The notes under the pieces: generated by a model
Databases searched by the model: none
Told to the model about the DNA's origin: nothing
What the model saw: only the letters and a program-made list of their open reading frames with translations
From: Gallionellaceae bacterium
GTDB lineage: Bacteria > Pseudomonadota > Gammaproteobacteria > Burkholderiales > Gallionellaceae
Length of the DNA stretch: 64,000 nt
Reading direction: 5' to 3'
NCBI GenBank assembly: GCA_009773615.1
Contig: WSYA01000005.1
Location: 1-64,000 of the forward strand
In this document: positions 115 to 64,000 of the stretch, piece by piece
How positions within the stretch are numbered: position 1 is the first letter of the stretch
Layout: every line of letters starts with the position of its first letter
Position numbers and translations under genes: made by a program

Positions 115-145
115 TAAAAAATGCCTCGAAAGGCACCTTCGAGGC
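115..145 (-). terminator. Rho-independent terminator of the Rieske/EamA/STAS operon
   Basis: An 8-bp perfect stem (GCCTCGAA at 123-130, TTCGAGGC at 138-145) with a 7-nt loop is followed, when read on the minus strand, by a run of six T. It lies about 107 bases downstream of the stop codon of the minus-strand gene at 252-599, the right place to end that operon. Nothing else recognisable is seen in bases 1-251. Confidence 0.7.
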
Positions 146-251
146 GCATAATCTGGTACTCGCACTGCAATGCCTTGTTTTAATTTGAGGTAATATTTTG
201 GCACACCCTAATTTTTCCGAGAAATGCACCATTGGCTTGCCCGCTTATTTT

Positions 252-599: not shown

Positions 600-610
600 G
601 TGCAATTTTC

Positions 611-1450
611 CTAATGTTTTGGGACCAGTTTCAAGCTTAACACACCGCTGACGATGATGAGCGCGATGCCGATCCAGCCGTCGAGCGACAGTGTTTCCTG
701 CCACAGCAAAAAGCCGAACAGACTGGCGAAGGCGATGGTGCTGTAAGACAACGTGCTCACCACTTGTGTCTGCCCGATGCGGTAGGCGCGCGTCATGGCG
801 AGTTGGGCGAAGGTGGCGGATGCGCCGAGGGCGAGCAACAGCGGCAGGTCGTTCAAGGTGATCGCATGTATCTCGCTTTGTGCCGCCCATATTCCGCTGA
901 ACAGTGTGGCGACTACATTGAAATAGAACACGATGCGTGTTGCGGGTTCGCCCTGTTGTCCGAGTTGGCGCACGTTCATCAAGGCGACTCCGGCGAGGAA
1001 GCCGGAGATCAACCCCAATATGCCGCTGGTGAATTGCTCCCGCTCCAGCGTGGGGTGCAGCAGCAATATTACCCCGACGAATCCCATCGCGAGGCTGGCG
1101 GTGAGCGGCAAATGAAAGCGATCTTTGTACACGGCCAGAGTGAGGGCGGTGAGGAACAGCGCGGAGGTGTAGTTGAGCGTGATGGCGGTGGCCAGCGGCA
1201 GGACGGTGATGCAGTAGAAAAACAGCATCATGGCTACCGTGCCGGAAAGCCCGCGCCACATGTGGCCGCGCCAATGCGGTGTGGCGAGCGATGTGCGCTT
1301 GCGGTGCAGCATGGCACTCACCAATAGCAGGCCGAAGAAGGAGCGGTAGAACACCAGTTCGCTGCTGGAGAAATGCGCCGCGCCAAACTTCACGAGTACG
1401 CCCATGCAGGCGAAAAGCAGCCCGGCGAGCAGTATCCATAAAGCGCCCAC
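611..1450 (-). CDS. EamA/DMT family transporter
   Basis: A 279-residue integral membrane protein with about ten hydrophobic segments arranged as two EamA repeats (roughly residues 1-130 and 145-275), the normal length for the drug/metabolite transporter superfamily. Such proteins export or exchange small metabolites across the inner membrane; the substrate cannot be read from sequence. The start is a GTG at 1450, only 6 bases after the stop of the upstream Rieske oxygenase gene. No good Shine-Dalgarno is visible, so translational coupling is likely. Context suggests transport of a substrate or product of the oxygenase, which is inference only. Confidence 0.85.
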   Translation of the reverse strand: MGALWILLAGLLFACMGVLVKFGAAHFSSSELVFYRSFFGLLLVSAMLHRKRTSLATPHWRGHMWRGLSGTVAMMLFFYCITVLPLATAITLNYTSALFLTALTLAVYKDRFHLPLTASLAMGFVGVILLLHPTLEREQFTSGILGLISGFLAGVALMNVRQLGQQGEPATRIVFYFNVVATLFSGIWAAQSEIHAITLNDLPLLLALGASATFAQLAMTRAYRIGQTQVVSTLSYSTIAFASLFGFLLWQETLSLDGWIGIALIIVSGVLSLKLVPKH

Positions 1451-1456
1451 GGCGGA

Positions 1457-2563
1457 TTATTTTAGATTCGGTTCGAGGCGGCGGCGCAAGAACTCATGGA
1501 AGTGCAGCATGCCGTCCTCGGTGGGTGATTGATACGGGCCTACCTCTTCGATGCCTTGCTGGTACAAGGCTTTGCGTCCCTGTTGCATGCGCAGGCAGAT
1601 GATGTCGTCTTCCACCGCCGTCTCGTGATAGGCCTGCTTTTCCGCTTCAACATATTCGCGCTCGAACAGCACGATGTCTTCTGGATAATAAAATTCCACC
1701 ACGTTGGTGCAGGCCTCGGGGCCGCGCGGAATGATGGTGCTCACCACCAACGTGTTCGGATACCACTCGACCATGATGTTCGGATAATAGGTCAGCCAGA
1801 TCGCGCCGTATTTCGGCATTACCCCGTTGTTGTAGCGCAGCACTTGCTCGGCCCATTTCTCATACACCGCGCTGCCGGGTTTGCGCAGCTGGTTGTTGAT
1901 GCCCACGGTCTGCACGCTGTACCAGTCGCCGAAATCCCAGGATAGATCGTCGCAGTTTACAAATTGCCCCAAACCGGGGTGGAATGGCACAACGTGGTAG
2001 TCCTCCTGATAGACCTCGATGAATGTCTTCCAATTGAAGGCGTACTCGTCTACTTCCACGCGATCCAGCATGTAGCCGGAGAAGTCGATTTCCTTGAATG
2101 CGGGCACGGTTGCCAGATCTTTGGCGATGTCGCGCTGACCTGCGAACAGCAAACCGTTCCAGTTTTGTAGCGACGTTTTGTTCAGGTGCAAACAGGGGTT
2201 TTGCGGAAAATGCGGAGCGCCAAGCAGCTCGCCGTCGGTCTTGTAAGTCCAGCGATGTATGGGGCAGGTGATGTTCTTTGCCGTGCCGCGCCCGGTGAGC
2301 ATGGTGGCCTGACGGTGGCGGCAGATATTCGACAGCAGCTCGATGCCGCTCTCGTTGCGCACCAGCATCTTGGCGTTGTCCATCCATTCGACCACATGAT
2401 AGTCGCCGAGATTCGGTGTCATCAATTCGTGTCCGACATACTTTGGCCCGGCGTCGAACAGCACGCGCTGCTCGATCTCCAAGATTTTCGGATCGAAATA
2501 CCAGCGCAACGGCGGTTGCGCGGAAACCAGTTTGAACTGATCTAGTTTTGCAATTTCTGACAT
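1457..2563 (-). CDS. Rieske non-heme iron oxygenase, alpha subunit
   Basis: A 368-residue ring-hydroxylating oxygenase large subunit. The Rieske [2Fe-2S] motif is complete (Cys81, His83, Cys100, His103; CxH-x16-CxxH). The catalytic half has the mononuclear iron motif in EDYHVVPFHPG near residue 190 (His-x4-His), preceded by NWKTFIEVYQE. Such enzymes hydroxylate or demethylate aromatic or quaternary ammonium substrates using electrons from a separate reductase, which is not encoded nearby. The ATG at 2563 is preferred over a GTG two codons upstream because AAAGGG sits 7 bases before it. It heads the minus-strand operon with the EamA exporter and STAS protein. The substrate is unknown. Confidence 0.88.
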   Translation of the reverse strand: MSEIAKLDQFKLVSAQPPLRWYFDPKILEIEQRVLFDAGPKYVGHELMTPNLGDYHVVEWMDNAKMLVRNESGIELLSNICRHRQATMLTGRGTAKNITCPIHRWTYKTDGELLGAPHFPQNPCLHLNKTSLQNWNGLLFAGQRDIAKDLATVPAFKEIDFSGYMLDRVEVDEYAFNWKTFIEVYQEDYHVVPFHPGLGQFVNCDDLSWDFGDWYSVQTVGINNQLRKPGSAVYEKWAEQVLRYNNGVMPKYGAIWLTYYPNIMVEWYPNTLVVSTIIPRGPEACTNVVEFYYPEDIVLFEREYVEAEKQAYHETAVEDDIICLRMQQGRKALYQQGIEEVGPYQSPTEDGMLHFHEFLRRRLEPNLK

Positions 2564-2630
2564 ACCCACACCCTTTGCGAATCGCGGTGAATACGGTTTT
2601 TAAGAGGCGCGGATTGTCCCCGAAATCCGA

Positions 2631-2638
2631 GGGGGGGG
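2631..2638. repeat. G8 homopolymer tract upstream of exbD operon
   Basis: Eight consecutive G lie in the 232-bp divergent intergenic region between the Rieske oxygenase gene and exbD. Such tracts can slip during replication; here it lies upstream of both promoters rather than in a reading frame. Confidence 0.6.
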
Positions 2639-2696
2639 CAATAACAATCATATTGATCAAATTGCGGCTTCTTGCCGGGGAGCGGCAGTTATTCAA

Positions 2697-2740
2697 TTGA
2701 GTTTGATAGGTCTATTAGCAATAAATAATTCACGTGAATT
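2697..2740 (+). promoter_or_regulatory. Candidate promoter and palindromic operator of the exbD-tonB operon
   Basis: TTGAGT at 2697-2702 and AATAAA at 2720-2725 are separated by 17 bases and each match the sigma-70 consensus at four or more positions. Immediately downstream, at 2727-2740, is a perfect 14-bp palindrome AATTCACGTGAATT that would overlap the transcription start, a typical repressor position. No Fur box or Pho box consensus was seen. The regulator is unknown. Confidence 0.4.
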
Positions 2741-2795
2741 TAATGCTGGCTCATTAGAGTGCGCGTTCAGTTAATCCGCGTAAAGAGACGTAAAA

Positions 2796-3203
2796 ATGCT
2801 CGCTTGGAACGAAGAGGAATCCCCGAAAAAAGCCCGTATCGAAATCATCCCGATGATCGACGTGATGATGTTCCTGCTGGTCTTTTTTGTACTCATCAGC
2901 CTGAACGTTATTCCCGCACTGGGCATCAAGACCAGCTTGCCCGGCTCTGCGCAGCCGGAGAAGTTGCCGGTACACAAACACGCAATCATAACGGTGGTGC
3001 CGAGCGGGCAGGTGCAACTGGACGGCACCGACTATTCGCTGGAAGGGCTGTCGTCCGCGCTGAAGCAGCTGAAAGCATCCGGAGATGCCGATGTCGTTAT
3101 CAATAGCGACAAGGATGTATCGGTGCAACAGCTGGTCGATGTGATGGATAGCATCAAATTGTCCGGAATTACCGCCATCGCCATTACATCCAAAAAGAGA
3201 TAG
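2796..3203 (+). CDS. exbD: ExbD/TolR family biopolymer transport protein
   Basis: A 135-residue protein with the ExbD layout: short cytoplasmic N-terminus, one transmembrane helix (about residues 20-40) starting with the conserved IPMIDVMMFLLVFF in which Asp22 is the proton-path aspartate, then a periplasmic domain of about 90 residues ending ITAIAITSKKR. With ExbB and TonB it turns proton-motive force into work on outer-membrane receptors. It is the first gene of an operon that carries its own TonB, receptor and ExbB, so it probably serves that receptor specifically. Eight bases separate it from tonB. Confidence 0.92.
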   Translation: MLAWNEEESPKKARIEIIPMIDVMMFLLVFFVLISLNVIPALGIKTSLPGSAQPEKLPVHKHAIITVVPSGQVQLDGTDYSLEGLSSALKQLKASGDADVVINSDKDVSVQQLVDVMDSIKLSGITAIAITSKKR

Positions 3204-3211
3204 GAAGCACG

Positions 3212-3853
3212 ATGAACTGGCCGCTGTATCAAAGAAGAGAGCGGGTCGCGCAACTGGCTACGGCAACGATAGGCCTGCTTATCCTGATGCTGTCGCAAAC
3301 ATTGTCCTTGCGGCAGGAGATGCCGGTTCGGGAAGAGCCTATCAGCCTCTCGATCATATCCGATGCGCAACCGGAGCTGGTCGTTGAGCAGCCCGTAGTG
3401 CAGACGCAACCCCCGCTGCCGCAGATGATGGAGTCTCCGCAGGAAGTGATGCCTGTCACGGAGGCCCCGGCACCCGTTGCCGTGCCCACCCCGCCAGTGA
3501 TGCCGGTGGCAAAAGTCGAGCCGCAACCAGAGCCGCAGGTGCAGCGCAGCAACAGTGCCGCCGAGGGGATGTTTGCGCAGGATGTGCGCTCGCGGATCGA
3601 ACGCAAAAAAATCTATCCCGACGCGGCACGCGATTTGGGTATGAGCGGTGAGGTCGAGGTGCTGTACGAACTGGATCGAACAGGGAGCCTGATCCGTGCC
3701 GAGATTGTCGCTTCATCCGGCTATAAGTTGCTCGATCAGGCGGCGCTCAGGGCGGTGAAGTCGGCGACATACAAGAGTTTCCCCGAGGATGCATGGTTGG
3801 GGGCAAGCAGTAAAACTTTCCGTACCAAGTTGGTATTTTCAATTAACCAGTAG
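3212..3853 (+). CDS. tonB: TonB energy transducer
   Basis: A 213-residue protein with an N-terminal membrane anchor (about residues 14-32), a proline-rich periplasmic spacer (residues 50-110, many P, V, E and Q), and a C-terminal TonB domain (about 125-213) recognisable from YPDAARDLGMSGEVEV and a terminal strand TFRTKLVFSI. It contacts the TonB box of outer-membrane receptors and opens them. It lies between exbD and the receptor gene (8-base gap on each side). Co-transcription with one receptor suggests a dedicated rather than housekeeping TonB. Confidence 0.92.
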   Translation: MNWPLYQRRERVAQLATATIGLLILMLSQTLSLRQEMPVREEPISLSIISDAQPELVVEQPVVQTQPPLPQMMESPQEVMPVTEAPAPVAVPTPPVMPVAKVEPQPEPQVQRSNSAAEGMFAQDVRSRIERKKIYPDAARDLGMSGEVEVLYELDRTGSLIRAEIVASSGYKLLDQAALRAVKSATYKSFPEDAWLGASSKTFRTKLVFSINQ

Positions 3854-3861
3854 GAGTCAAT

Positions 3862-6126
3862 ATGCAGAGTTATAACTTGAAGTTGAAGCCAGTGGCAGTA
3901 TTGCTGGCATCGTTATTCGCGACGGGCGCTTTTGCCCAGGACGGCAATGTAGTGCAAACGGAAAGTGTTTCCGTGTTTGGACAGGGGCAATCCCGTCAAG
4001 TGCAAACGATAAACAGTGCGGATATGAAAAAAGCTGCCGCGGGTACCAGCCCGCTGAAGGTGCTGGAAAAATTGCCTGGCGTGAGCTTCCAGTCTTCCGA
4101 CCCTTTCGGGGCCTACGAGTGGTCCACCCGTTTCGGCGTGCGCGGCTTCAGTCAAAGCTATATGGGCTTTACCCTGGACGGTATTCCGTTGGGCGACATG
4201 AGCTACGGCAACAATAATGGCCTGCACATCAGTCGTGCGATTGCTTCCGAGAATGTCGGGCGCGTCAGTCTGTCGCAGGGGGCGGGTTCCCTTGGGGTGG
4301 CATCGACCAGTAACTTGGGTGGCACGGTGCAGTTTGTTTCCTCCGAACCGGAAAACAAACTCGGGGTGCGTGTGGATCAAACCATGGGGAGTAGCAGTAT
4401 GTCGCGCACGTTCGCGCGGCTGGATACCGGTTTGCTTGAATCCGGCACCAAGGCTTATATGAGCTATGTTAACCAAGGCGCGCAGAAATGGAAGGGCTGG
4501 GGGCCGCAAAATCAGGAGCAGTTCAACTCGAAACTCGTGCATATGTGGGGCGAGAATAAAATCACTGCATTCCTGAATACTTCGGACCGCAGCGAGACCG
4601 ATTACCAGGATATGTCCATCGATATGCAGCAGAAGCTGGGTTGGGGCTGGGATAACTATGCGCCGGACTGGAAGCGCGCAATTGATGCCGCAAGAGGAAC
4701 TTACTCCGGCGGTGTGGGCAATATCAACGCGAACACCGGCCCGCTGGATGCCGCGTATTACCTCGGCCGCGGTTTGCGCAAGGATCGCCTGTTCGGTACA
4801 TCGCTGGATGTGGCCGTGACCGAAGATGTGCGCCTGAAGTCGACGTTCTACACCCACAGTAATAAGGGGCAGGGACAATGGTATACGCCTTATGTCGCCT
4901 CTCCGGGTACTGCGGCTGCGGCAGGGGTGTACACGGGTGAGGGCTTGCCGATTTCCATTCGCACGACCGAGTACACCATTGATCGTAGCGGTTGGGTGAA
5001 CGATTTGACCTGGAATGCCGGAATCAATACCGTCAATGCAGGCTTATGGATGGAAAAGAGCTACAGCACGTTGGCACGGAATTACTTCGCGGCAACGGGG
5101 CCTACGGACACCAACTATTTCCTGACCAATCCGTTCAAAACCGATTTCGTACAGGACTTTGCCACCACCACCACCCAGTTCCATTTGCAGGACACGGTGG
5201 CGCTGATGGACGGACAGATGAAGACAAACTTCGGCTTCAAGTCGCCCAAGGTGCAGATTGATGCGACCAGCCAGGCAGGCACTCGTTCCGGCGGAAGCCT
5301 CGCTGCTGAAAAAGCTTTTCTGCCGCAATTGGGCGTCAACTTCAGTCTGAATGACATGAATGAAGTGTTCGCCTCCGCTTCGCAGAATATGCGTGCGTAC
5401 CAGCCGGGCGTGAATGGTCCATTCTCGCAAACACAGGCGGCATTTAATGCCTCGAAAGCCAGCCTGAAGCCGGAAATGTCTGAAACGTACGAAGCGGGTT
5501 ATCGCTACAAAGGGGACTCTCTGCAAGGATCGCTGGCGGCTTATCTGACCAACTTCCACGACCGTTTGCTGCAAGTCACCTCGACAGTCGGCATTGTCAG
5601 CATTCCCGGTACTTTCGTGAACGTAGGCTCGGTGCAGAGCAAGGGCGTGGAAGCGGCGCTGGTATGGACTCCTGTGCAGGACTGGACCTGGTTCAACTCG
5701 CTGACCTTGAACGATTCCCAATACAAGTCCGATTACGTGAACGGGGGAACAACGGTCAACACCAGCGGCAAGCAGGTGGTCGATGCTCCCAAGGTCATGT
5801 TCAACACAGACATCGGCTACGAGAATAACGGCTGGTTCGGCAACCTCGGCGGCAAGTATACCGGCGAGCGTTACTACACCTACCTTAACAATGGCAAGGT
5901 TGACAGCTACTTCGTAATGAATGCCGCAGCCGGTTACAAGCAGGCGAACATGGCCGGCCTGAAGGAATTTTCCGCGCAAGTGGCGATTACCAACCTGCTG
6001 GACAAGAAATATTTCAGCACGATAGGCAGTAACGGCTTTGTGGCTTCCGATGCTAATGGCGCATTTGCCACGATGCAGGAAGGCGCACCACGTCAATTGT
6101 TCCTAACATTGAGCGGCAAGTTCTAA
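3862..6126 (+). CDS. TonB-dependent outer-membrane receptor
   Basis: A 754-residue receptor. A signal peptide (about 1-25, ending TGAFAQ) is followed by a possible TonB box (ESVSVFG), a plug domain containing LKVLEKLPGVSFQ and FGVRGFSQSYMGFTLDGIP, and a 22-stranded barrel that ends in aromatic Phe (LFLTLSGKF). Such receptors import scarce substrates above porin size or affinity limits. The ligand is not identifiable from sequence. Two downstream genes encode secreted phosphatases, so a phosphorylated organic compound or a phosphate-bearing metal complex is a reasonable guess. Start ATG 3862 has GGAG (3853-3856) five bases upstream. Confidence 0.92.
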   Translation: MQSYNLKLKPVAVLLASLFATGAFAQDGNVVQTESVSVFGQGQSRQVQTINSADMKKAAAGTSPLKVLEKLPGVSFQSSDPFGAYEWSTRFGVRGFSQSYMGFTLDGIPLGDMSYGNNNGLHISRAIASENVGRVSLSQGAGSLGVASTSNLGGTVQFVSSEPENKLGVRVDQTMGSSSMSRTFARLDTGLLESGTKAYMSYVNQGAQKWKGWGPQNQEQFNSKLVHMWGENKITAFLNTSDRSETDYQDMSIDMQQKLGWGWDNYAPDWKRAIDAARGTYSGGVGNINANTGPLDAAYYLGRGLRKDRLFGTSLDVAVTEDVRLKSTFYTHSNKGQGQWYTPYVASPGTAAAAGVYTGEGLPISIRTTEYTIDRSGWVNDLTWNAGINTVNAGLWMEKSYSTLARNYFAATGPTDTNYFLTNPFKTDFVQDFATTTTQFHLQDTVALMDGQMKTNFGFKSPKVQIDATSQAGTRSGGSLAAEKAFLPQLGVNFSLNDMNEVFASASQNMRAYQPGVNGPFSQTQAAFNASKASLKPEMSETYEAGYRYKGDSLQGSLAAYLTNFHDRLLQVTSTVGIVSIPGTFVNVGSVQSKGVEAALVWTPVQDWTWFNSLTLNDSQYKSDYVNGGTTVNTSGKQVVDAPKVMFNTDIGYENNGWFGNLGGKYTGERYYTYLNNGKVDSYFVMNAAAGYKQANMAGLKEFSAQVAITNLLDKKYFSTIGSNGFVASDANGAFATMQEGAPRQLFLTLSGKF

Positions 6127-6137
6127 TCAGGTGGCGC

Positions 6138-6161
6138 GGCCGGGGCGATGCTGTCCCGGCC
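6138..6161 (+). terminator. Intra-operon GC hairpin after the receptor gene
   Basis: GGCCGGG (6138-6144) pairs with CCCGGCC (6155-6161) across a 10-nt loop, 12 bases after the receptor stop codon. It is followed only by a weak T-rich stretch, so it may be a partial terminator or an mRNA-stabilising hairpin lowering expression of the downstream exbB and phosphatase genes relative to the receptor. Confidence 0.45.
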
Positions 6162-6196
6162 ATTTGCTTTGCAGAAATTAATTCCGGGAATCAAAA

Positions 6197-6799
6197 ATGT
6201 CATTCACTTTTATTCATGAACTGGTGATGTACTTCATGGTCGGCGTGCTGCTGTTTGCCACCTACGTCATCATCGAACGCCTGATCTTTTTCGCAGTCAC
6301 TTTGCGGGAAGGGAAAAATGTAGAGAACTTCGTGCGCAGCCATTTGCACGATAAGAAATTGCATGGCCAGATCATCGACACATTCCAGTCGCAAAACAGT
6401 CCTCAGGCGCAGGCGATTTGCGAAGTCGTGACCGCCGCCAAAGATGCCCGCACGCACGAACAGATGGAGTACATCGTGCAGTCCATTTACGTTTCCAAAA
6501 AGCCGCAGGTCGGCCCGCGTTTGTGGATACTGGATACGATCATCACCATGTCGCCGCTGCTGGGTTTGCTCGGCACGATTCTGGGCATTATCGACGCATT
6601 TCACAGCCTGTCATCCGGCAGCGCGGCCGCCGACCCGGCAGCCGTGAGCCGCGGCATCGGCACGGCTTTGTACGCCACCGGCTTCGGTATTTTTATTGCG
6701 CTGTATGTCATGATGTTCTTCAACTACTTCAACAGTAAAGTCGAAGCAATCAACAACCAGATGAAGCTGATTTCACTGACCGTGTTGGGAGCGCGTTGA
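6197..6799 (+). CDS. exbB: ExbB/TolQ/MotA-family proton channel
   Basis: A 200-residue MotA/TolQ/ExbB family protein with three hydrophobic helices (about residues 8-32, 112-135 and 155-180). The conserved central segment SPLLGLLGTILGIIDAF and the following G-TALYATGFGIF helix are typical of the proton channel. It partners ExbD encoded 3 kb upstream in the same operon; splitting exbB from exbD by tonB and the receptor gene is unusual. ATG 6197 lies 70 bases after the receptor gene and follows an intra-operon hairpin. Confidence 0.9.
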   Translation: MSFTFIHELVMYFMVGVLLFATYVIIERLIFFAVTLREGKNVENFVRSHLHDKKLHGQIIDTFQSQNSPQAQAICEVVTAAKDARTHEQMEYIVQSIYVSKKPQVGPRLWILDTIITMSPLLGLLGTILGIIDAFHSLSSGSAAADPAAVSRGIGTALYATGFGIFIALYVMMFFNYFNSKVEAINNQMKLISLTVLGAR

Positions 6800-6812
6800 A
6801 TTGGGTGCGGGG

Positions 6813-8522
6813 ATGACAATGATTGATCGGTTCAAGCTGGGCCTGCTGGCCTCCATGGCAGCGGCTGCCCCCGCAGCAGCCGCGCCCAAGGCGCTCACTC
6901 CCATCGAGCATGTGATCGTCATCATTGGCGAGAACCGTTCGTTCGACAACCTGTTCGCAACTTATCGTCCGAAAAAAGGCCAGACGGTTTTCAATCTGTT
7001 GTCGCAAGGCATTGTGAAAGAAAACGGCTTGCCGGGCAAGAATTTCAACCTTGCAGTGCAACGTCAGGCGGAGAACAACGGCGAATATTCGCCGACTCCA
7101 AATGTTAAAAATACCTACGGGGTATTGCCGCAGCCTTATGCATGGGGCGCTTTCGGGCAGCGTCGGGATATTCCCGATGCGCGTTTTCCGGCGGATATGC
7201 CGAACGGTCCGTTCCAAATAACCAGGTATGTGAGTTACGGCACGCACACCGGCGACCCCGTGCACCGTTTCTTCCAGATGTGGCAGCAGGTGGACGGGGG
7301 CAAGAATGATCTGTTTGTCTGGACGGCGGAAACTGTCGGTGCGGGGCCCAGCAACGGCAAATTGTTGCTGGCCAATTACCGCACGTTTCAGGGCGCGGTC
7401 GCGATGGGGTTCTACAACATGGCGAGCGGCGATGCGCCCTATATTCGCCAGCTTGCCGAAGAATACGCGATCGCGGACAACTATCACCAGTTCATCATGG
7501 GCGGCACGACCGCCAACTATATGGCGCTGACCACGGCGGACGTGTCGTTTTATACACGCGACGGCAAGCCTGGCGCGCCGCCGGCCAAGCTGAACGAGAA
7601 TCCCGATGCGCAACCGGGCACGAACAACTGGTATACCGAGGACGGTTATCAGGGAGGCACTTATGTGAACTGCGCCGACCGGCAAAATCCGGGCGTAAGC
7701 GGCATTGCCGATTTCCTGAAAAAATTGCCGTACCGCGCGTTCCGCGATGGCAATTGCGCCCCCGATACTTGGTACATGGTGAATAACATGGAACCCTCGT
7801 TCTCGCCGACAGGCGAGCCGCTGCCGCCGGGCGACGACAAGTTGCCGCCGCAGATCATCCCCTCCATCGGCGACGCACTGACGGCGAAGGGCGTGTCTTG
7901 GCGCTGGTACAGCGGCGGCCGCAACGACGGCAAGAACGTGGACAAGGAATACTGTGCGATGTGTGACACGCACTTGTACTTCCCTTCCATCATGCTGGGG
8001 GCGGGTAAATCCAGATTGCACGACTTGCAGCAGTTCTATGCGGATGCGCAACAGGCCGAAGAGGCGTTCCCGGCAGTCTCTTTTATCGCGCCGTATGACA
8101 GCATTTCCGGACATCCCGGCTACGCGATGGAAACCGGTTTCGACGAGTTGCTGCGCAGTGTGGTGAACAAGGTCAAACAGAATCCCGCGTTGTGGGACAA
8201 GACTGCGATTATCGTGACTTTCGACGAGAGCGGCGGCTACTATGATTCCGGCTACGTGCAGTTCATCGACTTTTTCGGCGACGGCCCGCGTGTGCCGCTG
8301 CTGGTGATTTCGCCGCACGCGAAAAAAGGCTACGTCGATCACACCTATTATGACCACGCCTCCATTTTGAAATTCATCGAGCGCAACTGGAGTGTGCCGC
8401 CGCTGTCCGCCCGCAGCCGCGACAATTTGCCCAATCCTGTCCACGACAAGGCCTCGGCCTACATACCGAAAAATCGCCCGGCCATCGGCGATCTGATGAA
8501 CTTGTTCCAGGAGAGAAAATGA
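6813..8522 (+). CDS. Secreted phosphoesterase (acid phosphatase/phospholipase C family)
   Basis: A 569-residue enzyme of the PF04185 phosphoesterase family (AcpA, phospholipase C). The N-terminal active-site block VIVIIGENRSFDNLF is present near residue 30, and the distal metal or phosphate-binding blocks FDESGGYYD and HTYYDHASILKF near residues 470-515. A short hydrophobic N-terminus ending APAAAAP looks like an export signal. The family hydrolyses phosphomonoesters or phosphodiesters in the periplasm or outside the cell. The start could be ATG 6813 or ATG 6819; the latter has GGGG six bases upstream. It overlaps the next gene by ATGA. Confidence 0.85.
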   Translation: MTMIDRFKLGLLASMAAAAPAAAAPKALTPIEHVIVIIGENRSFDNLFATYRPKKGQTVFNLLSQGIVKENGLPGKNFNLAVQRQAENNGEYSPTPNVKNTYGVLPQPYAWGAFGQRRDIPDARFPADMPNGPFQITRYVSYGTHTGDPVHRFFQMWQQVDGGKNDLFVWTAETVGAGPSNGKLLLANYRTFQGAVAMGFYNMASGDAPYIRQLAEEYAIADNYHQFIMGGTTANYMALTTADVSFYTRDGKPGAPPAKLNENPDAQPGTNNWYTEDGYQGGTYVNCADRQNPGVSGIADFLKKLPYRAFRDGNCAPDTWYMVNNMEPSFSPTGEPLPPGDDKLPPQIIPSIGDALTAKGVSWRWYSGGRNDGKNVDKEYCAMCDTHLYFPSIMLGAGKSRLHDLQQFYADAQQAEEAFPAVSFIAPYDSISGHPGYAMETGFDELLRSVVNKVKQNPALWDKTAIIVTFDESGGYYDSGYVQFIDFFGDGPRVPLLVISPHAKKGYVDHTYYDHASILKFIERNWSVPPLSARSRDNLPNPVHDKASAYIPKNRPAIGDLMNLFQERK

Positions 8523-10423
8523 AAAAGCTGATACTGCTATCCCTGTTGCTGGCCACCGCAGCGCAGGCTGAGCCGCTAGTGAAATCGGTGGAGTTTACGC
8601 CTACGCCCGTACCTGTCAGCGATGAAGAGCGTACCACGCCGTTTACCCGCTCCAGCGTGATCGTGACCTATCGGAATGGCCACAAGAAAACCTTCCCGTT
8701 GTCGCATCATGTGCTGTACCGCTCCGGCGACAAAATCGGCAACGGGCAGGCGGGCGCAATCGTCAATAAACGCGGCCAATTGATCGCGCGCTCGGCGGAA
8801 GACGCGGCGGGCAATGTGGCGCAGGGGCCTTTCTTCTCCTATGCGCCGGATGCCAATTCGTTGTTGCAGGTAAACGGCGATCACGCCTATCTGTTGACCC
8901 ATTTCGAATATCACACCGAAGCGCCAAATGTTGACACGAACAAGCCGCCGGTGCAGATGTATGCGCAACTGCCGGCCGCGATCAATGCGGCCAGCGTGGT
9001 GCAGGATAAGAAAAGCGGTCTGCTCAAAGTGGTCGATTTGAAAAACGTGGATGCGACAGGGGTGAGCGGAATATGGACACCGTGCGCCGCCAGCCAGACT
9101 CCTTGGGGCACGCATCTGGGCGGCGAAGAATACGAACCGAATGCGCGCGAGTTTGAAACCGCACCGTTGCAGCCGATGAATCTGTATCTCGGCACGCCGG
9201 GAAAGACCGCGCAGGAAGGCGGGGCGAATCCTTATGATTACGGCTTCAAGATGGAAGTGTCCGTACAGCCGGACGGCAAGACGCAAATCGTCAAACATCA
9301 CGCGATGGGGCGGCTGGCGAACGAGCTGGGCGACGTGATGCCAGACCTTCGCACGGTCTATATGGGCGATGACGGGCGCGACACGGTCATGTTCATGTTT
9401 ATTGCCGACCAACCAGGCAACTTGACCTCCGGTACGCTGTACGCCGCGATGTGGCTCCAGCAGAATGGCGACAACGCGGGCAGGGCTCTGTTGAAATGGG
9501 TGAAGCTCGGTCATGCCAGTGATGAGGAAATTACGGGATTGATACGCAAGGGCATCCGTTTTTCGGATATTTTCGAGACTGCGGCTGTCAACGCAGTTAA
9601 AGCGAACCCGGCGCTCGCCAAGGAATTCAAGGCTGTGTACGTTTATCCGGGTACCGGCACCGCCACGAACCAGCTTGAATATCTCAAGCTCAAACCGGGC
9701 ATGGAGCTGGCGGCGGCCTTCCTGGAAAGCCGCCGTTATGCGGCATTTCTGGGGGCGACAGCCGAGTTTACAAAAATGGAAGGCGTGACGCATAACCTGA
9801 AGGACAAGCGTTTGTACATGGCGATGTCCTACATCGAGCGCGGCATGCTGGATAAGGCGAGCGATGATCGTCCGGCAGACCACATCGCTCTGGATGGTGA
9901 CAGCAAGGACTTGGTCTGCGGTGCGGTGTACGAAGGCTTACTGGGTGGGCAGCAGGACGACACGCAAGGCAACCGCATCAGCAGCGACTGGGTGGCCCAC
10001 GAAATGCGCGGCATGCTGACCGGTGCGCGCAAGCCGTTCTGGCAAGCCGAGGCACCGCTGGACAAATGCGACAGCGAACGCATCGCTAACCCGGATAATT
10101 TGAAATACTCCGAAGCGATGCGTACCCTGTTTATCGGCGAGGACAGCGGCAACCACCTGAACAATTTTGTTTGGGCTTACAACGTTGACACGCACCTGGC
10201 TGTACGCATTTTTTCCGCCCCTATCGGCGGCGAAAATACTGGCCTGCAAGTGGTAGAAAATTGGAATGGGCACAGCTATCTGATGGGCAATGTGCAGCAT
10301 CCTGGTGCGAGCGACGACCTGAGTGGTTATGCTCCGGCTTATATCCGGGAAGAGTTGGCGGGCAAAGTTAACAAGAAAGGCATTGTCGGATATATCGGCG
10401 GATTGCCGAGTATCAAACGCTGA
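8519..10423 (+). CDS. PhoX-like alkaline phosphatase (DUF839)
   Basis: A 634-residue secreted protein of the PhoX/DUF839 family (PF05787). A signal peptide (about 1-17, ending AAQAEP) precedes a beta-propeller-type body. Family marks include GIWTPCAASQTPWGTHLGGEE near residue 190 and KIGNGQAG upstream. Characterised PhoX enzymes are Ca/Fe-dependent periplasmic phosphatases releasing phosphate from many esters. The start codon overlaps the stop of the preceding phosphoesterase (ATGA), so the two are translationally coupled. Membership of the family is clear; activity on phosphate esters is inferred from family. Confidence 0.82.
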   Translation: MKKLILLSLLLATAAQAEPLVKSVEFTPTPVPVSDEERTTPFTRSSVIVTYRNGHKKTFPLSHHVLYRSGDKIGNGQAGAIVNKRGQLIARSAEDAAGNVAQGPFFSYAPDANSLLQVNGDHAYLLTHFEYHTEAPNVDTNKPPVQMYAQLPAAINAASVVQDKKSGLLKVVDLKNVDATGVSGIWTPCAASQTPWGTHLGGEEYEPNAREFETAPLQPMNLYLGTPGKTAQEGGANPYDYGFKMEVSVQPDGKTQIVKHHAMGRLANELGDVMPDLRTVYMGDDGRDTVMFMFIADQPGNLTSGTLYAAMWLQQNGDNAGRALLKWVKLGHASDEEITGLIRKGIRFSDIFETAAVNAVKANPALAKEFKAVYVYPGTGTATNQLEYLKLKPGMELAAAFLESRRYAAFLGATAEFTKMEGVTHNLKDKRLYMAMSYIERGMLDKASDDRPADHIALDGDSKDLVCGAVYEGLLGGQQDDTQGNRISSDWVAHEMRGMLTGARKPFWQAEAPLDKCDSERIANPDNLKYSEAMRTLFIGEDSGNHLNNFVWAYNVDTHLAVRIFSAPIGGENTGLQVVENWNGHSYLMGNVQHPGASDDLSGYAPAYIREELAGKVNKKGIVGYIGGLPSIKR

Positions 10424-51853: not shown

Positions 51854-54530
<2,677 letters not shown>

Positions 54531-54687: not shown

Positions 54688-54768
54688 GATTTATAAATGA
54701 ATTCAGTGATTAAGAGCCTATTCCCCGCTCCATATTTATTCATTCAGAAACGAATTAAGGGTAACAAT

Positions 54769-55182
54769 ATGCCAAGGTCAATCGAATTCATTTTGCGGAG
54801 TTGTTTGGCGCTTTTGTTTTTGACTTCGCTGATGGTTGCTGCCAACGCGAATGCGCAGGGGGGCGGAGGAGAGGGCACCGGGCTTTATAAGAAACTCGAG
54901 CCTTTTACCGTTAATCTGGTCGGCCTCAGGCAGGTGATCCAATTGTCCGTTACGCTCAAATTGGCCAAGGCGGAGGCTGGCGAAAAGGTGAGTCTGTACA
55001 CTCCCGCGATTCGCCATGCGATGATTATTTTGTTGAGCGGAAAGACTGCGGAGCAAATCGAAACATCGGAAGGCAAGCATCTTCTGATCAAGGAAACCAA
55101 GGCTGCGGTCAACAAGGCAATCGAGTTGGATGCCAAGGAAGGTGTGGCCGAGGTGTTGTTCGAGTCCATCATCATTCAGTAA
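54769..55182 (+). CDS. FliL-like flagellar basal-body-associated protein
   Basis: A 137-residue protein of the FliL family. After a signal peptide or uncleaved anchor (about 10-30, ending ANANAQ) and a Gly-rich linker comes the SPFH-like FliL domain with KKLEPFTVNLVG, LKLAKAE and IRHAMIILLSGKTAEQI. FliL normally stabilises flagellar stators, but no flagellar genes adjoin. ATG 54769 is preferred, as AAGGG lies upstream; a frame from 54697 would extend through sequence next to the tRNA. It sits between tRNA-Ser and dnaE. Confidence 0.78.
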   Translation: MPRSIEFILRSCLALLFLTSLMVAANANAQGGGGEGTGLYKKLEPFTVNLVGLRQVIQLSVTLKLAKAEAGEKVSLYTPAIRHAMIILLSGKTAEQIETSEGKHLLIKETKAAVNKAIELDAKEGVAEVLFESIIIQ

Positions 55183-58958: not shown

Positions 58959-59567
58959 ATGTCTAAAATTACTAATGTATTGTTGTTCTCTGTTGTCGCT
59001 CTGGGTCTCGTCGCCTGCGGGGCAAGTCCGGTCAAAGAAGCGCCCAAGAAAGTGGCGGACTGCGTATTTCCGAACACTCAGGAGGCTGCTCCGGGTTGGA
59101 TTTGCGATGAACCTGTTGAAGGCGTGGTTGTGAGTGCGGTAGGTTCGGCTGAGAAAACCGCAGCAGGCATCGAGTTTATGAAAAATATGGCCGCAACTGC
59201 GGCGCGTGTGCAACTTGCCCAGCGCATGAAGGTGCAAGTGGCCAATATGGTCAAGCAATATGTTGAAACCACCGGTGCCGGTAAGGATGAGTCGGTAGAC
59301 AAAGTGAATACCTCGGTGACCAAGCAAATCACCAATGAGACATTGGTCGGGACGCGCATCTTCAAGAGCCGTCAGGGTCCGGATGGAACGATGTATGTGC
59401 TGGTAGGTTTGGATGAGGCATCGGCACAGAAATTGACCGAGTCAGCGGTTAAAACCAGCATGAACAATGATCGCGCTTTGTGGCAGAAATTCCAAGCCGG
59501 TAAATCACAAGATGAGATGGCTGCTGCTATAGCCCAGCAAAAAATAGAAGCCGCAGCTGCAAAGTAA
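58959..59567 (+). CDS. LPP20-like lipoprotein A
   Basis: A 202-residue lipoprotein. The lipobox LGLVAC places the lipidated Cys at residue 20. The mature part matches the LPP20 pattern (PF02169): PGWICDEP, a glycine after a short strand (VSAVGSA), an alanine-rich helix AATAARVQLAQRMKVQVANM, and a last strand GTMYVLVGLDE. The C-terminal 40 residues form a helical Ala/Lys/Gln tail. The family is envelope-associated with no general enzymatic role. GGGAGG lies 9 bases before ATG 58959. A strong terminator follows, so it may be transcribed alone. Confidence 0.8.
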   Translation: MSKITNVLLFSVVALGLVACGASPVKEAPKKVADCVFPNTQEAAPGWICDEPVEGVVVSAVGSAEKTAAGIEFMKNMAATAARVQLAQRMKVQVANMVKQYVETTGAGKDESVDKVNTSVTKQITNETLVGTRIFKSRQGPDGTMYVLVGLDEASAQKLTESAVKTSMNNDRALWQKFQAGKSQDEMAAAIAQQKIEAAAAK

Positions 59568-59592
59568 CGATATACCGAAATAATGTACTAGG

Positions 59593-59621
59593 AACCTATG
59601 CCCCGCCGGGCATAGGTTTTT
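59593..59621 (+). terminator. Rho-independent terminator after LPP20-like gene A
   Basis: AACCTATGCCC (59593-59603) pairs perfectly with GGGCATAGGTT (59608-59618) around a 4-base loop and is followed by T-rich sequence. It lies 26 bases after the stop codon. Confidence 0.9.
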
Positions 59622-59660
59622 CCTCTAATACCGTTGCTTTATGTTGAGTTGCTTGTGCAT

Positions 59661-60830
59661 ATGATATTTAGAAAAATATATTTATTCCTGATATTGCTTG
59701 TTGTGTTTCCTGTATCTGTGCTGGCAGCGTCGAGTGCGCTCGCGCCGGAAACCATGAGGGAATTGAGTGAGAAAAACGCTCATATCAAAGCAAAGGTCAA
59801 GGAATTGGATGAGATTGGCAGGGATATGGTGGCTGCCAAAGCTAAAAAGATTGCTGCCGCCGACTCTATCGAGCGGCTTGAGTCGGAAAGCGATCAGGCG
59901 CTTGAGCGCTTGGAGACATTGCAGAAAATAGATCGCGAGTCGCCGGATACGATTGCGCCTGAAAAGTTGACCAAAGCCAAGGAGGCGAACAAACAAGCAT
60001 TGGCCGCCCTGAATAACGCAAAAGCCAAGCGCGATGATGCTGCTGCCGAAGTTAGAGCGCTGACCGGAAGGGCAAACGAGCAATATAATGAGTTTCAGAG
60101 GCTGCAAAGATCTTTTGAGCGGGATGTGGATATGGCAGTGGATCCGCAAGTGGATCGGCACATCCGTACTTTGCATACGGCCAAAGAAGTGGAAGTGAGC
60201 GCCCGAGTTGCCTGTGGTGACGAGTCACCGAAGGCGTGCAAAGAGAAATCGCTAAAGGCGGCCGAATTGGCCGCGTCGGAGCGGGGGTCAGTGGTTTTCG
60301 TTACCTCCTTGACCGAGATCAAGAACTTTAAGCTGAGCAAGGAAGAGTTGAGCAGCGAGGTTCGGGCGACATTGACGAACAAGGAGGTCGTAAAGCAGCA
60401 AATGTTTGGCGAGGCCGAGGCGTATGAGACTACGCTGAAAGCCAGAGTTGAGCCGGTCATCGGAGATTCATTGCGAGATCAGATGGCTGAAGGTATCCGT
60501 TCCGAGATTTACACGTTGGCGGGGGGCAAGATCGACTATGCTCGTGTGCATAATCCGGCCGATGCGGACGATGAAGATCAACCGAAAAGGATAGAGAAAA
60601 AGAAGGCCGGGGGCGATGCGCGCGAGGTTCGTAAAGCTGCACGGGCAGAAGAAGAGCGCCGCAAGGCTGCCGAGAGGGCGCGAGCGGCGGAAGAGGCTCG
60701 CGCGGCGGAAGAGGAGCGCCGGGCTGCGCAAGCCGAGGAAGAACAACGCCGGGCCGAGGAAGAGCGCAATCGGGCGGCTCGGGCTGAGGGAGAGCGTCGT
60801 CGCTCGTCTGTACCGACTTTTAGTTTTTGA
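59661..60830 (+). CDS. Exported coiled-coil protein with charged repeat tail
   Basis: A 389-residue protein with a signal peptide (about 5-22, ending VSVLA), a long heptad-rich coiled coil (about 25-150), a central part (about 150-310) containing two cysteines in ACGDESPKACKEK that may form a disulfide, and a tail (about 315-385) of Arg/Glu/Ala repeats such as AEEARAAEEERRAAQAEEE. I recognise no family. The start is uncertain (ATG 59661, or codons just upstream), with no good ribosome site. It lies between a terminator and a predicted outer-membrane barrel gene. Confidence 0.7.
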   Translation: MIFRKIYLFLILLVVFPVSVLAASSALAPETMRELSEKNAHIKAKVKELDEIGRDMVAAKAKKIAAADSIERLESESDQALERLETLQKIDRESPDTIAPEKLTKAKEANKQALAALNNAKAKRDDAAAEVRALTGRANEQYNEFQRLQRSFERDVDMAVDPQVDRHIRTLHTAKEVEVSARVACGDESPKACKEKSLKAAELAASERGSVVFVTSLTEIKNFKLSKEELSSEVRATLTNKEVVKQQMFGEAEAYETTLKARVEPVIGDSLRDQMAEGIRSEIYTLAGGKIDYARVHNPADADDEDQPKRIEKKKAGGDAREVRKAARAEEERRKAAERARAAEEARAAEEERRAAQAEEEQRRAEEERNRAARAEGERRRSSVPTFSF

Positions 60831-60891
60831 TTTGGCAGTGGCAGTTCAGCTGGGCTTTGAGGTTTGATTTTTTATATCGAAAGGGACGAAA

Positions 60892-61656
60892 ATGAAAAAA
60901 ATTACTATGCTAGTTTATCTGTTGGGCGCTTCGGCACTTGTTTCCCAAAGTGCGATGGCATCGGGACTCAAAGTTCGCGGGGGTGCCACGAATAACGACT
61001 ACTCCACAGACTTTTCACCCGCCGCCAGTACGGGAAATCCGTATGCCAAGTCCACTTTTAGTGGAACCGCTTTTGGGGCGACATGGTTGATTGATGATTC
61101 AATGTATATCGATTATGCGATGTCCAGCGGGAGCGGCACGAGAGACAGTAAACTTACTAATGGAACTACCTTTTCAACAAATTTAACGAGAACAGACAAT
61201 GCGATCGTATTTGGAAACACTTCAGTAGGTACGAGCGGCACCGCTACCAATGTATATTTTGGCTGGAAGACCGGCGAAACAAAAATGGATGCGCCCTCCG
61301 CAGCTATTGTTCTAAATCCGACCTCGCGTAATTTTTCAACCAGCGGCTTTATTTTCGGTGGTGGCGTGGGTATCCCTGCAGCAGGCGGTTCTTTGGGCTT
61401 GAGTTTGGGGATGGGATTGATGAGTGGGAAATACGATACCGTTTCGACAACCACGACGGTAAAAAATGCTGCGGATATGGCGCTTGGCTTCAGTTTGGGC
61501 ATCGGTTATTCCTATCCGTTCACGCCTAACTTTGGCATTGCCGCCGATTATAAATACAACTCATATAACTACGTTTTTGATTCGGGGCTCACTACTGAAT
61601 GGAGTTTGAATGAAAAATTGTCTACAACAGGGGTTTCTCTTTGGGCGAAATTTTAA
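60892..61656 (+). CDS. Predicted outer-membrane beta-barrel protein
   Basis: A 254-residue exported protein: signal peptide about 1-22 (ending SAMASG), then alternating aromatic/glycine strands (for example NVYFGWKTGE, LGLSLGMGLMSGKYD, IAADYKYNSYNYVF) and a terminal Phe (VSLWAKF), the signature of small outer-membrane barrels. No known OmpA/OmpW family mark is certain. AAAGGGACG precedes the ATG. It lies 12 bases before LPP20-like gene B, so the genes are probably co-expressed. Function unknown, possibly anchoring the cluster's other envelope proteins. Confidence 0.72.
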   Translation: MKKITMLVYLLGASALVSQSAMASGLKVRGGATNNDYSTDFSPAASTGNPYAKSTFSGTAFGATWLIDDSMYIDYAMSSGSGTRDSKLTNGTTFSTNLTRTDNAIVFGNTSVGTSGTATNVYFGWKTGETKMDAPSAAIVLNPTSRNFSTSGFIFGGGVGIPAAGGSLGLSLGMGLMSGKYDTVSTTTTVKNAADMALGFSLGIGYSYPFTPNFGIAADYKYNSYNYVFDSGLTTEWSLNEKLSTTGVSLWAKF

Positions 61657-61668
61657 GACTGACTTACA

Positions 61669-62115
61669 GTGAAACATTTTTTTCGTTTCTGCTTGCTGGC
61701 TGCGGCGCTTCCATTGGCGGGATGCGTCGTGCAGCCGGAGGGTGCGTCAAAAATGGGAGCTCCTGCTGTGGCAGCAAAAGTGAGCTTGCCAGCATGGGTG
61801 CTTAACCCGGAGAAGGCTGGCTATGTGAGCGTGGTCGGCGCGGCACCCAAACAAGACTGGGGCGGTCGCGATGCGCAATATCGGGTTGCACAGATGAAGG
61901 CGCGGCAAGAGTTGGCTCAGATGGTTCGAGTTCAGGTCAAGTCCACGTCGCAATCCAGCATGGAGCAACGTGAAGGAAAGGTTGCGAGCGAGGCTGATAT
62001 CGAGATCAGCATGCAGAGTCGGGTCGATTTGAGCCTTGATGCGGCACGCGTGATTGAGGAATGGGCTGACCCGCAGACAGGTGAGTTATATATCTGGCTG
62101 GTGACGCCAAAGTAG
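61669..62115 (+). CDS. LPP20-like lipoprotein B
   Basis: A 148-residue lipoprotein starting with GTG. The lipobox LPLAGC places the lipidated Cys at residue 19. The mature domain follows the LPP20 pattern: LPAWVLNPEKAGYVSVVGAA, a helix QMKARQELAQMVRVQVKS, and a final strand GELYIWLVTP. It is shorter than LPP20-like protein A but shares its order of W, G and A-R-x-E motifs, so the two are paralogues. It is 12 bases after the barrel gene and about 100 bases before a small lipoprotein gene. Confidence 0.78.
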   Translation: MKHFFRFCLLAAALPLAGCVVQPEGASKMGAPAVAAKVSLPAWVLNPEKAGYVSVVGAAPKQDWGGRDAQYRVAQMKARQELAQMVRVQVKSTSQSSMEQREGKVASEADIEISMQSRVDLSLDAARVIEEWADPQTGELYIWLVTPK

Positions 62116-62219
62116 CAATTGTTTGGGAGCAAGTTCGGTTTGGGTGGCCAGCCACTTTTCTAATCATCAATTCGTCGCGTTACAGAAATTCGTGTTGAGC
62201 GACATCAAAGGAGAATCAT

Positions 62220-62375
62220 ATGAACAGATTGATTTCAATGCTGGCTATTTTTCTAACTGTCCTTGCAGCATCAGGTTGTGCCGAACAACCCGGTAAGTCT
62301 GGGAATACCGCAGAGACTCAGCGCGCTAATGCGGAAAAAGTGCAAGGTGAATTATCGTCGGAGGTGAAAAAATAA
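62220..62375 (+). CDS. Small lipoprotein (51 residues)
   Basis: A 51-residue predicted lipoprotein too short for many gene finders. A hydrophobic signal (residues 3-19) ends in the lipobox LAASGC with Cys20, followed by a 31-residue hydrophilic tail ending SSEVKK. AAAGGAGA six bases before the ATG gives good support. Three bases separate its stop from the FecR-domain gene, so they are co-translated. Family unknown; it may tether or modify partner envelope proteins. Confidence 0.75.
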   Translation: MNRLISMLAIFLTVLAASGCAEQPGKSGNTAETQRANAEKVQGELSSEVKK

Positions 62376-62378
62376 ACC

Positions 62379-63137
62379 ATGCAAAAAATTAAATCTAGCT
62401 TTGGATTAATTCTTTGCTTGGTTGGCTTAAGCGTGGCGAACGCCAGTTTTGCCGCAGAGTCGATTGAGATCGTTAAATCCCAAGGTGCCGTAACGGTAAG
62501 CGATAAGGCGGATGGCAAGCAGAAAGCTGTCGCCACCAAGAGGCTCGTTGCCAATGTCATAGCCACCGGAGCCGACGGACGCGCAGTGGTACGTGTGGGC
62601 AACACAGGTTATATCGTGCTGGAAAAAAACAGCAGGGTCGAGATCGATAACGGTTCGACCGGTTTTTTTCGTCAGCTGACAGGCGTGGTGTATTACGCGG
62701 TCAATACCATAAAAGGTAAAGACCGCACGCTTGAAGTCAGGACGAAGACCGCTACCATGGGTATTCGCGGCACGCGTTTTTTAGTGGCCGACATACCGGA
62801 TCGTAACGAGATCGGCATGCGCAAGGGGACGCTTAACGTGGAGAGCCCCGCTGGGGAATTTGAAATTCACAAAAAGGCGGAACTGGATGAATTCGAGGCA
62901 ATGAAGCGCGAAGGTCAGGTCGCAGTGAATAAAGAAAAGAGTGATTTCGAGGCATACAAGGCGAGTGTCGAAAAAGAATTTGTCGAATACAAACGGGAAT
63001 TTTCCCTGAGTGCGGATCGCATGGTGTCTTTCGATGGCAAGCGTGTGGATGATCGTCCATTGAGTGGCGCAACCAAGAAGGATATGGAGACGCTGGAAAG
63101 CTATGCCGACGAGTGGCTTAAGCAAGTACAAGATTGA
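62379..63137 (+). CDS. FecR-domain periplasmic protein
   Basis: A 252-residue exported protein with a signal peptide (about 1-25, ending ASFA) and a FecR domain (about 30-150) including VIATGADGRAVVRVGNTGYIVL, VYYAVNTIKGKDRTLEVRT and TATMGIRGTRFLV. This is the stand-alone periplasmic form, lacking the cytoplasmic anti-sigma N-terminus of FecR regulators. The C-terminal part (about 160-250) is helical and charged. No sigma factor is adjacent. It lies 3 bases after the small lipoprotein and 12 before an LPP20-like gene. Confidence 0.82.
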   Translation: MQKIKSSFGLILCLVGLSVANASFAAESIEIVKSQGAVTVSDKADGKQKAVATKRLVANVIATGADGRAVVRVGNTGYIVLEKNSRVEIDNGSTGFFRQLTGVVYYAVNTIKGKDRTLEVRTKTATMGIRGTRFLVADIPDRNEIGMRKGTLNVESPAGEFEIHKKAELDEFEAMKREGQVAVNKEKSDFEAYKASVEKEFVEYKREFSLSADRMVSFDGKRVDDRPLSGATKKDMETLESYADEWLKQVQD

Positions 63138-63149
63138 GGAGTGCTATCA

Positions 63150-63605
63150 ATGAATCATTTCTCCAGCTTTAAACTTGTTTTGATACCAGTTTTGTTTTTG
63201 CTGATCTGTGCGGGCAGCGTCAATGCGGAAGGGATATTTTCTTTACTATTCGGATCCTCAGGTAAGAGCCAAGCTGTTGCTGATGATCCCAAGGCAAGAC
63301 CGGCGTGGATCGACAATCCCGGTAATGGCGTATCCGCTTCAGCCGCTATGAATGTTCGCGGCAGGGCGGCGCAGGAAGAGATGGCCATCATGCGCGGCAG
63401 GGAAGAATTCGCAAAGCGATTCGGGGTGTCCATAGAGTCGGCGCAGGGGTTTTCTACAACCGTGGCGAATGATCGGGCCAGTACGACTGGCGCTCATGTC
63501 TCTCGCGAAGAAACTAAGCAAACCGACGTCAAAGCGGTAGTGAAGGCCAAGTGGCGCGACGAAGAGGCCGATGTGTTGTGGGTGTGGGTCGTTCCGAGCA
63601 ATTAA
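63150..63605 (+). CDS. LPP20-like exported protein C
   Basis: A 151-residue exported protein with a signal peptide (about 8-26, ending GSVNAEG) and no lipobox. The mature part has the LPP20-like order RPAWIDNPGNGVSASAAM, then EMAIMRGREEFAKRFGVSIES and a last strand DVLWVWVVPS, resembling lipoprotein B. ATG 63150 is preferred because GAGGAG lies 8 bases upstream; a GTG at 63141 is possible. It lies between the FecR-domain gene and a formylglycine-generating-enzyme-like gene. Confidence 0.72.
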   Translation: MNHFSSFKLVLIPVLFLLICAGSVNAEGIFSLLFGSSGKSQAVADDPKARPAWIDNPGNGVSASAAMNVRGRAAQEEMAIMRGREEFAKRFGVSIESAQGFSTTVANDRASTTGAHVSREETKQTDVKAVVKAKWRDEEADVLWVWVVPSN

Positions 63606-63628
63606 CGGCAGTTAAAGAGGGGGCTATT

Positions 63629-64000
63629 ATGAAACGAGATCATCTGTACAAAGCGGGTATGTTTCTTTCGTTGGCGACGATATTGCTCTTTCCCGCTAAA
63701 TTTGCTCAGGCTCAGGATGAGTTTGGGGTGCACCGAAAAAAGACGATGGAAGAGTTTCAGGACTTCAAGGACGGTCGGCGTAGCGCCAAAGGCCAGAAGG
63801 AATTAGATGAAGCCACATCCGATGGAACTGCGCCCGACGAAGCTCCGGCAGCCGCGCCAGTAGCGCCACCCGTTGCTCCTGTAGTTGCACCCGTCGCAGC
63901 CCTGGTCGCGGCTAAAAGTAAGGATGCCGGTACGATATTCCGCGATTGCCCGGACTGCCCCGAAATGGTGGTGATTCAGGCGGGCAGTTTTGAAATGGGC
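63629..64000 (+). CDS. SUMF1/FGE-sulfatase domain protein (partial)
   Basis: The first 124 codons of a gene cut by the window edge. A signal peptide (about 10-28, ending FAQAQD) leads into a charged stretch, then an Ala/Pro/Val linker (about 70-100), and the beginning of a formylglycine-generating-enzyme-like domain, FRDCPDCPEMVVIQAGSFEMG. This start is typical of FGE-sulfatase (PF03781) proteins, many of which are not true formylglycine enzymes. The catalytic part is outside the window, so activity cannot be judged. AAAGAGGGGG precedes the ATG. Confidence 0.75.
   Translation, partial: MKRDHLYKAGMFLSLATILLFPAKFAQAQDEFGVHRKKTMEEFQDFKDGRRSAKGQKELDEATSDGTAPDEAPAAAPVAPPVAPVVAPVAALVAAKSKDAGTIFRDCPDCPEMVVIQAGSFEMG

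Follow-up and report, generated by a model that had tools for sequence, protein, structure and literature searches.

A Gallionellaceae gene cluster with LPP20 lipoproteins and a transglutaminase-like protein that may form an outer-membrane enzyme complex

What might a bacterium build from a run of genes that encode only exported or lipidated proteins? The question is raised by one end of a 64,000-nucleotide stretch of DNA (the window) from a bacterium of the Gallionellaceae, a family of iron oxidisers of fresh water. The window comprises bases 1-64000 of the 73,514-base contig WSYA01000005.1 in a genome of 2.37 Mb (103 contigs, 93.57% complete). A preliminary description of the window had noted eight consecutive + strand genes of this kind. 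ORF calling finds all eight (g1-g8) as + strand open reading frames (ORFs), and each product, read by eye, starts with a signal peptide or a lipobox. The short spacings reported after the coiled-coil gene g2 (3-104 bases) are also borne out, with gaps from g2 onward of 61, 12, 104, 3, 3-12 and 23 bases. The cluster does continue beyond the window, whose end truncates it: on the contig, g8 runs to position 64543 and is followed by a ninth gene, g9, at 64632-66131 (L002:4632-6131 in our numbering of loci), and then by a SulP-like transporter gene on the opposite strand. The decisive gene, g9, thus lay outside the stretch first described. We propose, with a probability of about one half, that the products of the cluster make up an envelope enzyme complex anchored at the outer membrane, in which lipoproteins of the LPP20 family would form a scaffold and exported partners would dock onto it through a short coiled coil.

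Conservation within the family distinguishes a core from more variable parts. We searched 150 Gallionellaceae genomes for g9 at E 1e-3, calling ORFs in the loci with the help of profiles, and found g9 in 28 genomes, in two of them by weak matches only. Around 26 g9 loci, several of which lie at contig ends, the FecR-domain gene (g6, 62379..63137, +) is near in 20, LPP20a (g1, 58959..59567, +) in 17 and LPP20c (g7, 63150..63605, +, or from a GTG start at 63141) in 15; positional orthologs of g5 (62220..62375, +), which encodes a 51-residue lipoprotein with the lipobox ASGC, occur in most loci. LPP20a, the small lipoprotein, the FecR protein, LPP20c and g9 are the conserved core. The eight genes that had been treated as a unit hold together in part: g1, g5, g6 and g7 are kept, whereas g2, g3 and g4 are an optional block and g8 (63629..64000 in the window, +) has an ortholog in no other Gallionellaceae locus compared.

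The association reaches beyond the family. When 369 genomes of the class were sampled, a profile of g9 built from family orthologues only (A1) detected the gene in 15, plus one genome that shares the coil only, and the homologues belong to ten further families of this class. Strong LPP20a matches (profile A4, E <1e-60) are present in 14 of the 369 genomes, 12 of which also have g9. If the window's own genome is left out, 13 genomes have LPP20a, 14 have g9 and 11 have both (p 8e-17); A4 includes sequences from some of the tested genomes, but a family-only LPP20a profile recovers these proteins too, at E-values of 1e-60 to 1e-87. Counted by family, the overlap is 7 (of 9 and 10), for which p is ~1e-8 if the number of families, an estimate, is 120-180. 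FecR homologues at E <1e-29 are present in four genomes besides the window's own, and every one of these has g9 (p 1e-6). LPP20a and g9 are neighbours in eight class genomes and lie on different contigs in three (G225, G220 and G176), and the FecR gene lies away from g9 in G310, G518 and G294. Because of these six genomes, the association is not one of neighbourhood alone. The preliminary description had named scattering of the genes in relatives as one of two possible refutations, the other being a described system that matches; instead, linkage is strong in the Gallionellaceae and in eight other genomes of the class. In a phylum-wide sample of 398, g9 was found in the window's own genome, in one family member and as a broken remnant, with no copy outside the class. 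A broken, apparently frameshifted g9-like remnant lies at L149:1220-1860 (- strand) in another class genome.

The most conserved member of the cluster is g9 itself. C417, D419, R420, H444 and D472-P473 are conserved across 30 g9 homologues, and C417, H444 and D472 are invariant, in distant homologues too. Our final AlphaFold2 model (residues 125-499, distant homologues added) has a pLDDT of 82, compared with 61 for an earlier model from 23 near orthologues. In Foldseek, its best matches among solved structures are chains of LapG, with a probability of 0.93-0.99 and E 0.016-0.07, and a transglutaminase. The DCED motif of g9 aligns with LapG-family proteins, and among 31 g9 members there are weak matches to Transglut_core in five and to DUF553 in four. 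Pfam lists no Peptidase_C93 (PF06035) match for any of the 31 homologues, a search of the window's own genome finds none at E 1e-10 either, and PDB sequence searches with g9 profiles give chance matches only. We rejected the assignment of g9 to LapG or to classical transglutaminases by sequence because the profile comparisons are weak, and the resemblance is therefore kept as a likeness of fold only. Overall, g9 looks like an enzyme of the transglutaminase-like superfamily, predicted to be periplasmic, that may either hydrolyse or crosslink.

Ahead of this domain, g9 has an FxxY coil and a Pro-rich linker, and the coil recurs in its neighbours. Two closely spaced FxxY/F motifs are found in each of g6 (in a C-terminal coiled coil), g8 and g9 (at the N-terminus). 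Among the 61 non-overlapping contig ORFs of at least 90 residues, these three alone carry the double motif, compared with 0.09 expected from shuffled proteins; as the pattern was drawn up after the cluster had been viewed, the count is descriptive. Independently of it, a profile of MltC-like proteins (A7) finds the N-terminus of g9 at E 1e-8, and the g9 search in turn retrieves MltC-like N-termini. The coil-bearing MltC-like proteins carry an SLT domain and, in L035 (and L034 by alignment), also NlpC/P60. Their genes lie near LPP20a in L067, L092, L111 and L115, and in L067, which has no g9, the gene adjoins FecR. MltC itself combines Mltc_N with SLT, whereas g9 has neither domain in Pfam and does not belong with the MltC-like proteins. 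The presence in relatives of a lytic transglycosylase with the same coil, in the place of g9 or alongside it, suggests peptidoglycan remodelling or tethering. Other loci have further neighbours: the set gains large lipoproteins and longer LPP20 proteins in L092, L094, L096, L100 and L111, and CsgG- and GNA1162-like genes in L095. These additions, none of which is found in the window's cluster, point to peptidoglycan or outer-membrane biology.

The candidate scaffold proteins are the LPP20-like lipoproteins. Pfam finds LPP20 in g1 and g4, FecR in g6 and FGE-sulfatase in g8, with nothing meaningful in g2, g5, g7 or g9. The LPP20 (PF02169) scores of g1 (39.1 bits) and g4 (LPP20b, 61669..62115, +; 37.8 bits) exceed the gathering score of 25.9, and both have lipoboxes by eye and are presumably lipidated. 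The LPP20a profile A4 matches the structure of Helicobacter pylori LPP20 (5ok8) at E 3e-13. There is no Pfam match for g7, and a PDB sequence search with the LPP20c profile gave none either; in a profile comparison, g7 matches g1 at 97.8%, and on this resemblance the original count of three LPP20-like proteins stands. LPP20c orthologs have a lipobox, which in the window copy is either weaker or replaced by a plain signal peptide (alignment A5). The C-terminal tail of g1 orthologs has a match in c23, a small lipoprotein related to g5. At L023:5005-6444 and L025:5074-6495, adjoining g9, LPP20a paralogues are extended at the N-terminus by a fused TolB/CsgG-like part with repeats.

LPP20a may also be made in larger amounts than its neighbours. 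The 93 bases between g1 and g2 contain a terminator-like hairpin (59590..59622, +), and the fold of 59570-59640 has an energy of -21.3 kcal/mol (z -2.87). Within ~110 bases downstream, and with thresholds chosen after the window's hairpin had been noticed, a hairpin followed by a T run is found after LPP20a in 16 of 21 Gallionellaceae cases (one of them, after the fused paralogue of L025, looks weak), versus 9 of 95 after other cluster genes. A simple promoter and terminator scan returned nothing above chance and missed the g1 hairpin, the likely cause being that its T run is base-paired within the stem. Given this hairpin, transcription of the genes as one uniform unit is unlikely, and we propose that it acts as a partial terminator that would leave LPP20a in excess.

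In the arrangement that we favour, LPP20a, LPP20c, optionally LPP20b, and the small lipoprotein would build an abundant scaffold along the outer membrane, on its periplasmic side. The FxxY coiled coil would dock exported partners onto this scaffold, namely the FecR protein and one catalytic protein. The catalytic partner here would be g9, a putative LapG/transglutaminase-like cysteine peptidase or acyltransferase, with g8 perhaps joining as a local extra. The complex would then remodel or tether peptidoglycan, or act on proteins at its surface. We have fair confidence that there is an enzyme-bearing outer-membrane complex of some kind, and moderate to low confidence that peptidoglycan is its target. 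A bolder form of this proposal, which we put forward as a tentative possibility, is an undescribed outer-membrane machine in which a single docking coil would plug interchangeable enzymes (transglutaminase-like, lytic transglycosylase, NlpC/P60) and the FecR protein into the LPP20 scaffold, with g9 possibly linking protein covalently to peptidoglycan or to another protein.

Several observations count against an enzyme complex of this design. The Foldseek E-values of g9 are no better than 0.016-0.07, and its profile comparison with Peptidase_C93 (hhalign) is weak, at a probability of 6%. Some of the sampled genomes are related and hence not independent, and the co-occurrence with FecR is drawn from four genomes. 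No full-length MltC-like coil enzyme is found in the window's own genome, which is 93.6% complete, so that the peptidoglycan link is indirect there. Finally, the coil may be a mere spacer instead of an interaction module.

If g9 is an enzyme, it could instead act on the cell surface. We consider it rather doubtful, though the best of the alternatives, that g9 works in the manner of LapG, cleaving or covalently modifying an outer-membrane or surface protein while the lipoproteins and the FecR protein position or regulate it. Among solved folds LapG is the closest to that predicted for g9, the aligned DCED motif fits this view, and periplasmic bacterial transglutaminase-like cysteine peptidases are known regulators of capsule and surface adhesins (PMC3032545, PMC4241560). 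In its predicted fold, its conserved Cys-His-Asp residues and its predicted export, g9 resembles these enzymes (PDB 4fgp, 4fgo, 4u65; HvyA, PMC4241560). However, it adds the N-terminal coil, the linker and an extra domain, and neither Pfam nor profile comparison places it in Peptidase_C93. Moreover, neither a LapD-like receptor nor a large adhesin is seen among the cluster genes, and other genomes have, as the equivalent partner, a lytic transglycosylase, whose target is peptidoglycan.

In known systems, FecR domains take part in signalling across the envelope, which raises the question of whether the cluster senses rather than builds. In such a scheme, the FecR protein and LPP20 lipoproteins would sense the state of the outer membrane or peptidoglycan, and g9 would signal by proteolysis. 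FecR homologues with an FxxY tail, away from g9, do stand beside an ECF-sigma-like gene in L108 and L109 and beside a CHASE2-like sensor gene in L110 (by eye). However, the cluster itself has no sigma factor or kinase among its genes, and g6, although it matches the Pfam FecR domain at 40.2 bits, scores 12.5 bits against the FecR equivalog (cut-off 385) and cannot be classed as an anti-sigma regulator on that basis. It is also exported and has no cytoplasmic anti-sigma part; a PDB sequence search with the FecR profile gave no match. We regard an envelope-stress sensor as unlikely. The preliminary description had offered an outer-membrane complex or an envelope sensor; an enzyme-bearing version of the former is favoured, and the latter has little beyond the FecR domain to recommend it.

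The LPP20 fold itself suggests another kind of assembly. LPP20 has an SHS2-like fold in common with FlgT and with FlgP, a protein that builds concentric rings (PMC12222027), so that higher-order assembly of the LPP20 proteins is conceivable. Could the cluster then form a ring or disk, comparable to the basal disk of FlgP, to support a pilus or another appendage for which g9 opens the peptidoglycan? In favour, the hairpin that follows LPP20a hints at a subunit in greater supply. By membership or resemblance, g1, g4 and g7 belong with this family (PMC12222027, PDB 5ok8), but the conserved core has no flagellar context and no appendage gene, and ring formation in the family is conditional on an insertion between the SHS2 helix and the second strand. 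An appendage support is accordingly improbable in our judgment. Least probable of all is that there is no single complex and that separately acting exported proteins are kept together by shared regulation or block transfer, as the patchy distribution (28 of 150 family genomes for g9) and modular, optional blocks might suggest, since co-occurrence persists across contigs and one coil is common to unrelated domains.

The remaining genes are more variable. The product of g8 was considered as an active sulfatase activator, that is, a catalytic formylglycine-generating enzyme (FGE). It matches Pfam FGE-sulfatase at 117.8 bits. The catalytic cysteine pair of FGE sits near the C-terminus. All six cysteines of g8 lie at 107-213 and none follows the RGG motif at 267, and the catalytic reading was rejected for this reason. 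From its sequence, g8 appears to be a local extra, an exported FGE-fold pseudoenzyme with an N-terminal FxxY coil. Its nearest solved structure is PvdO, and PorK (GldK/PorK) is also matched, but g8 falls far under the NCBIfam cut-offs for PvdO and GldK, and no pyoverdine or type 9 secretion genes are seen in the cluster. A second locus in the same genome (L119; C34, ~145-8670) encodes FGE-domain, LPP20-like and TolB-like proteins, and its FGE protein resembles g8 at E 4e-60.

The optional block of g2 (59661..60830, +), g3 (60892..61656, +) and g4 is present in six loci, the window, L033, L062, L063, L064 and L068, and orthologs of g3 and g4 occur only there. L068 has the block without g9, which lies elsewhere in that genome on another contig. 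The exported coiled-coil protein g2 has no family match in Pfam or NCBIfam, and its orthologs in the other five loci are 46-49% identical; g3, a predicted outer-membrane beta-barrel, has a weak OMP_b-brl match of 21.7 bits, under the curated Pfam cut-off. A different block adjoins FecR in some loci only (L032, L054, L055, L058, L059 and L068); it comprises a barrel together with c12, which is CsgG-like, and c13, an LPP20-TPR protein. Many loci have dnaE upstream, and SulP adjoins several. Upstream of dnaE and the cluster, the window also contains an MltF-type lytic transglycosylase-like gene (53139-54530, -) and a FliL-like gene (54697-55182, +).

Does the gene set correspond to a known system? 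The preliminary description knew of none, and we found no description in the literature searched, which left most subscription journals outside its scope. The nearest parallels are partial. The outer-membrane lipoprotein NlpI of Escherichia coli keeps envelope enzymes together in multi-protein complexes (PMC7049810), a scaffold logic comparable to that of the proposed LPP20 complex. However, NlpI is one adaptor for many hydrolases, whereas the cluster has several LPP20 lipoproteins, a coil borne by the clients and a LapG/transglutaminase-like putative enzyme. LpoA and LpoB are outer-membrane lipoproteins that control peptidoglycan synthases (PMC3060616). A CsgG/LpoB-like gene is near in the relative L095 (and, by reading, in L100 and L111), but the window's cluster has no Lpo-like gene, and no synthase partner was identified.

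If our proposal is right, it would give a shared function to proteins of unknown role in environmental Pseudomonadota, the Gallionellaceae included. An LPP20 scaffold could then recruit different cell-envelope enzymes via one small module. This is a testable claim on LPP20 proteins, of which little is understood except in flagellar motors and in Helicobacter.

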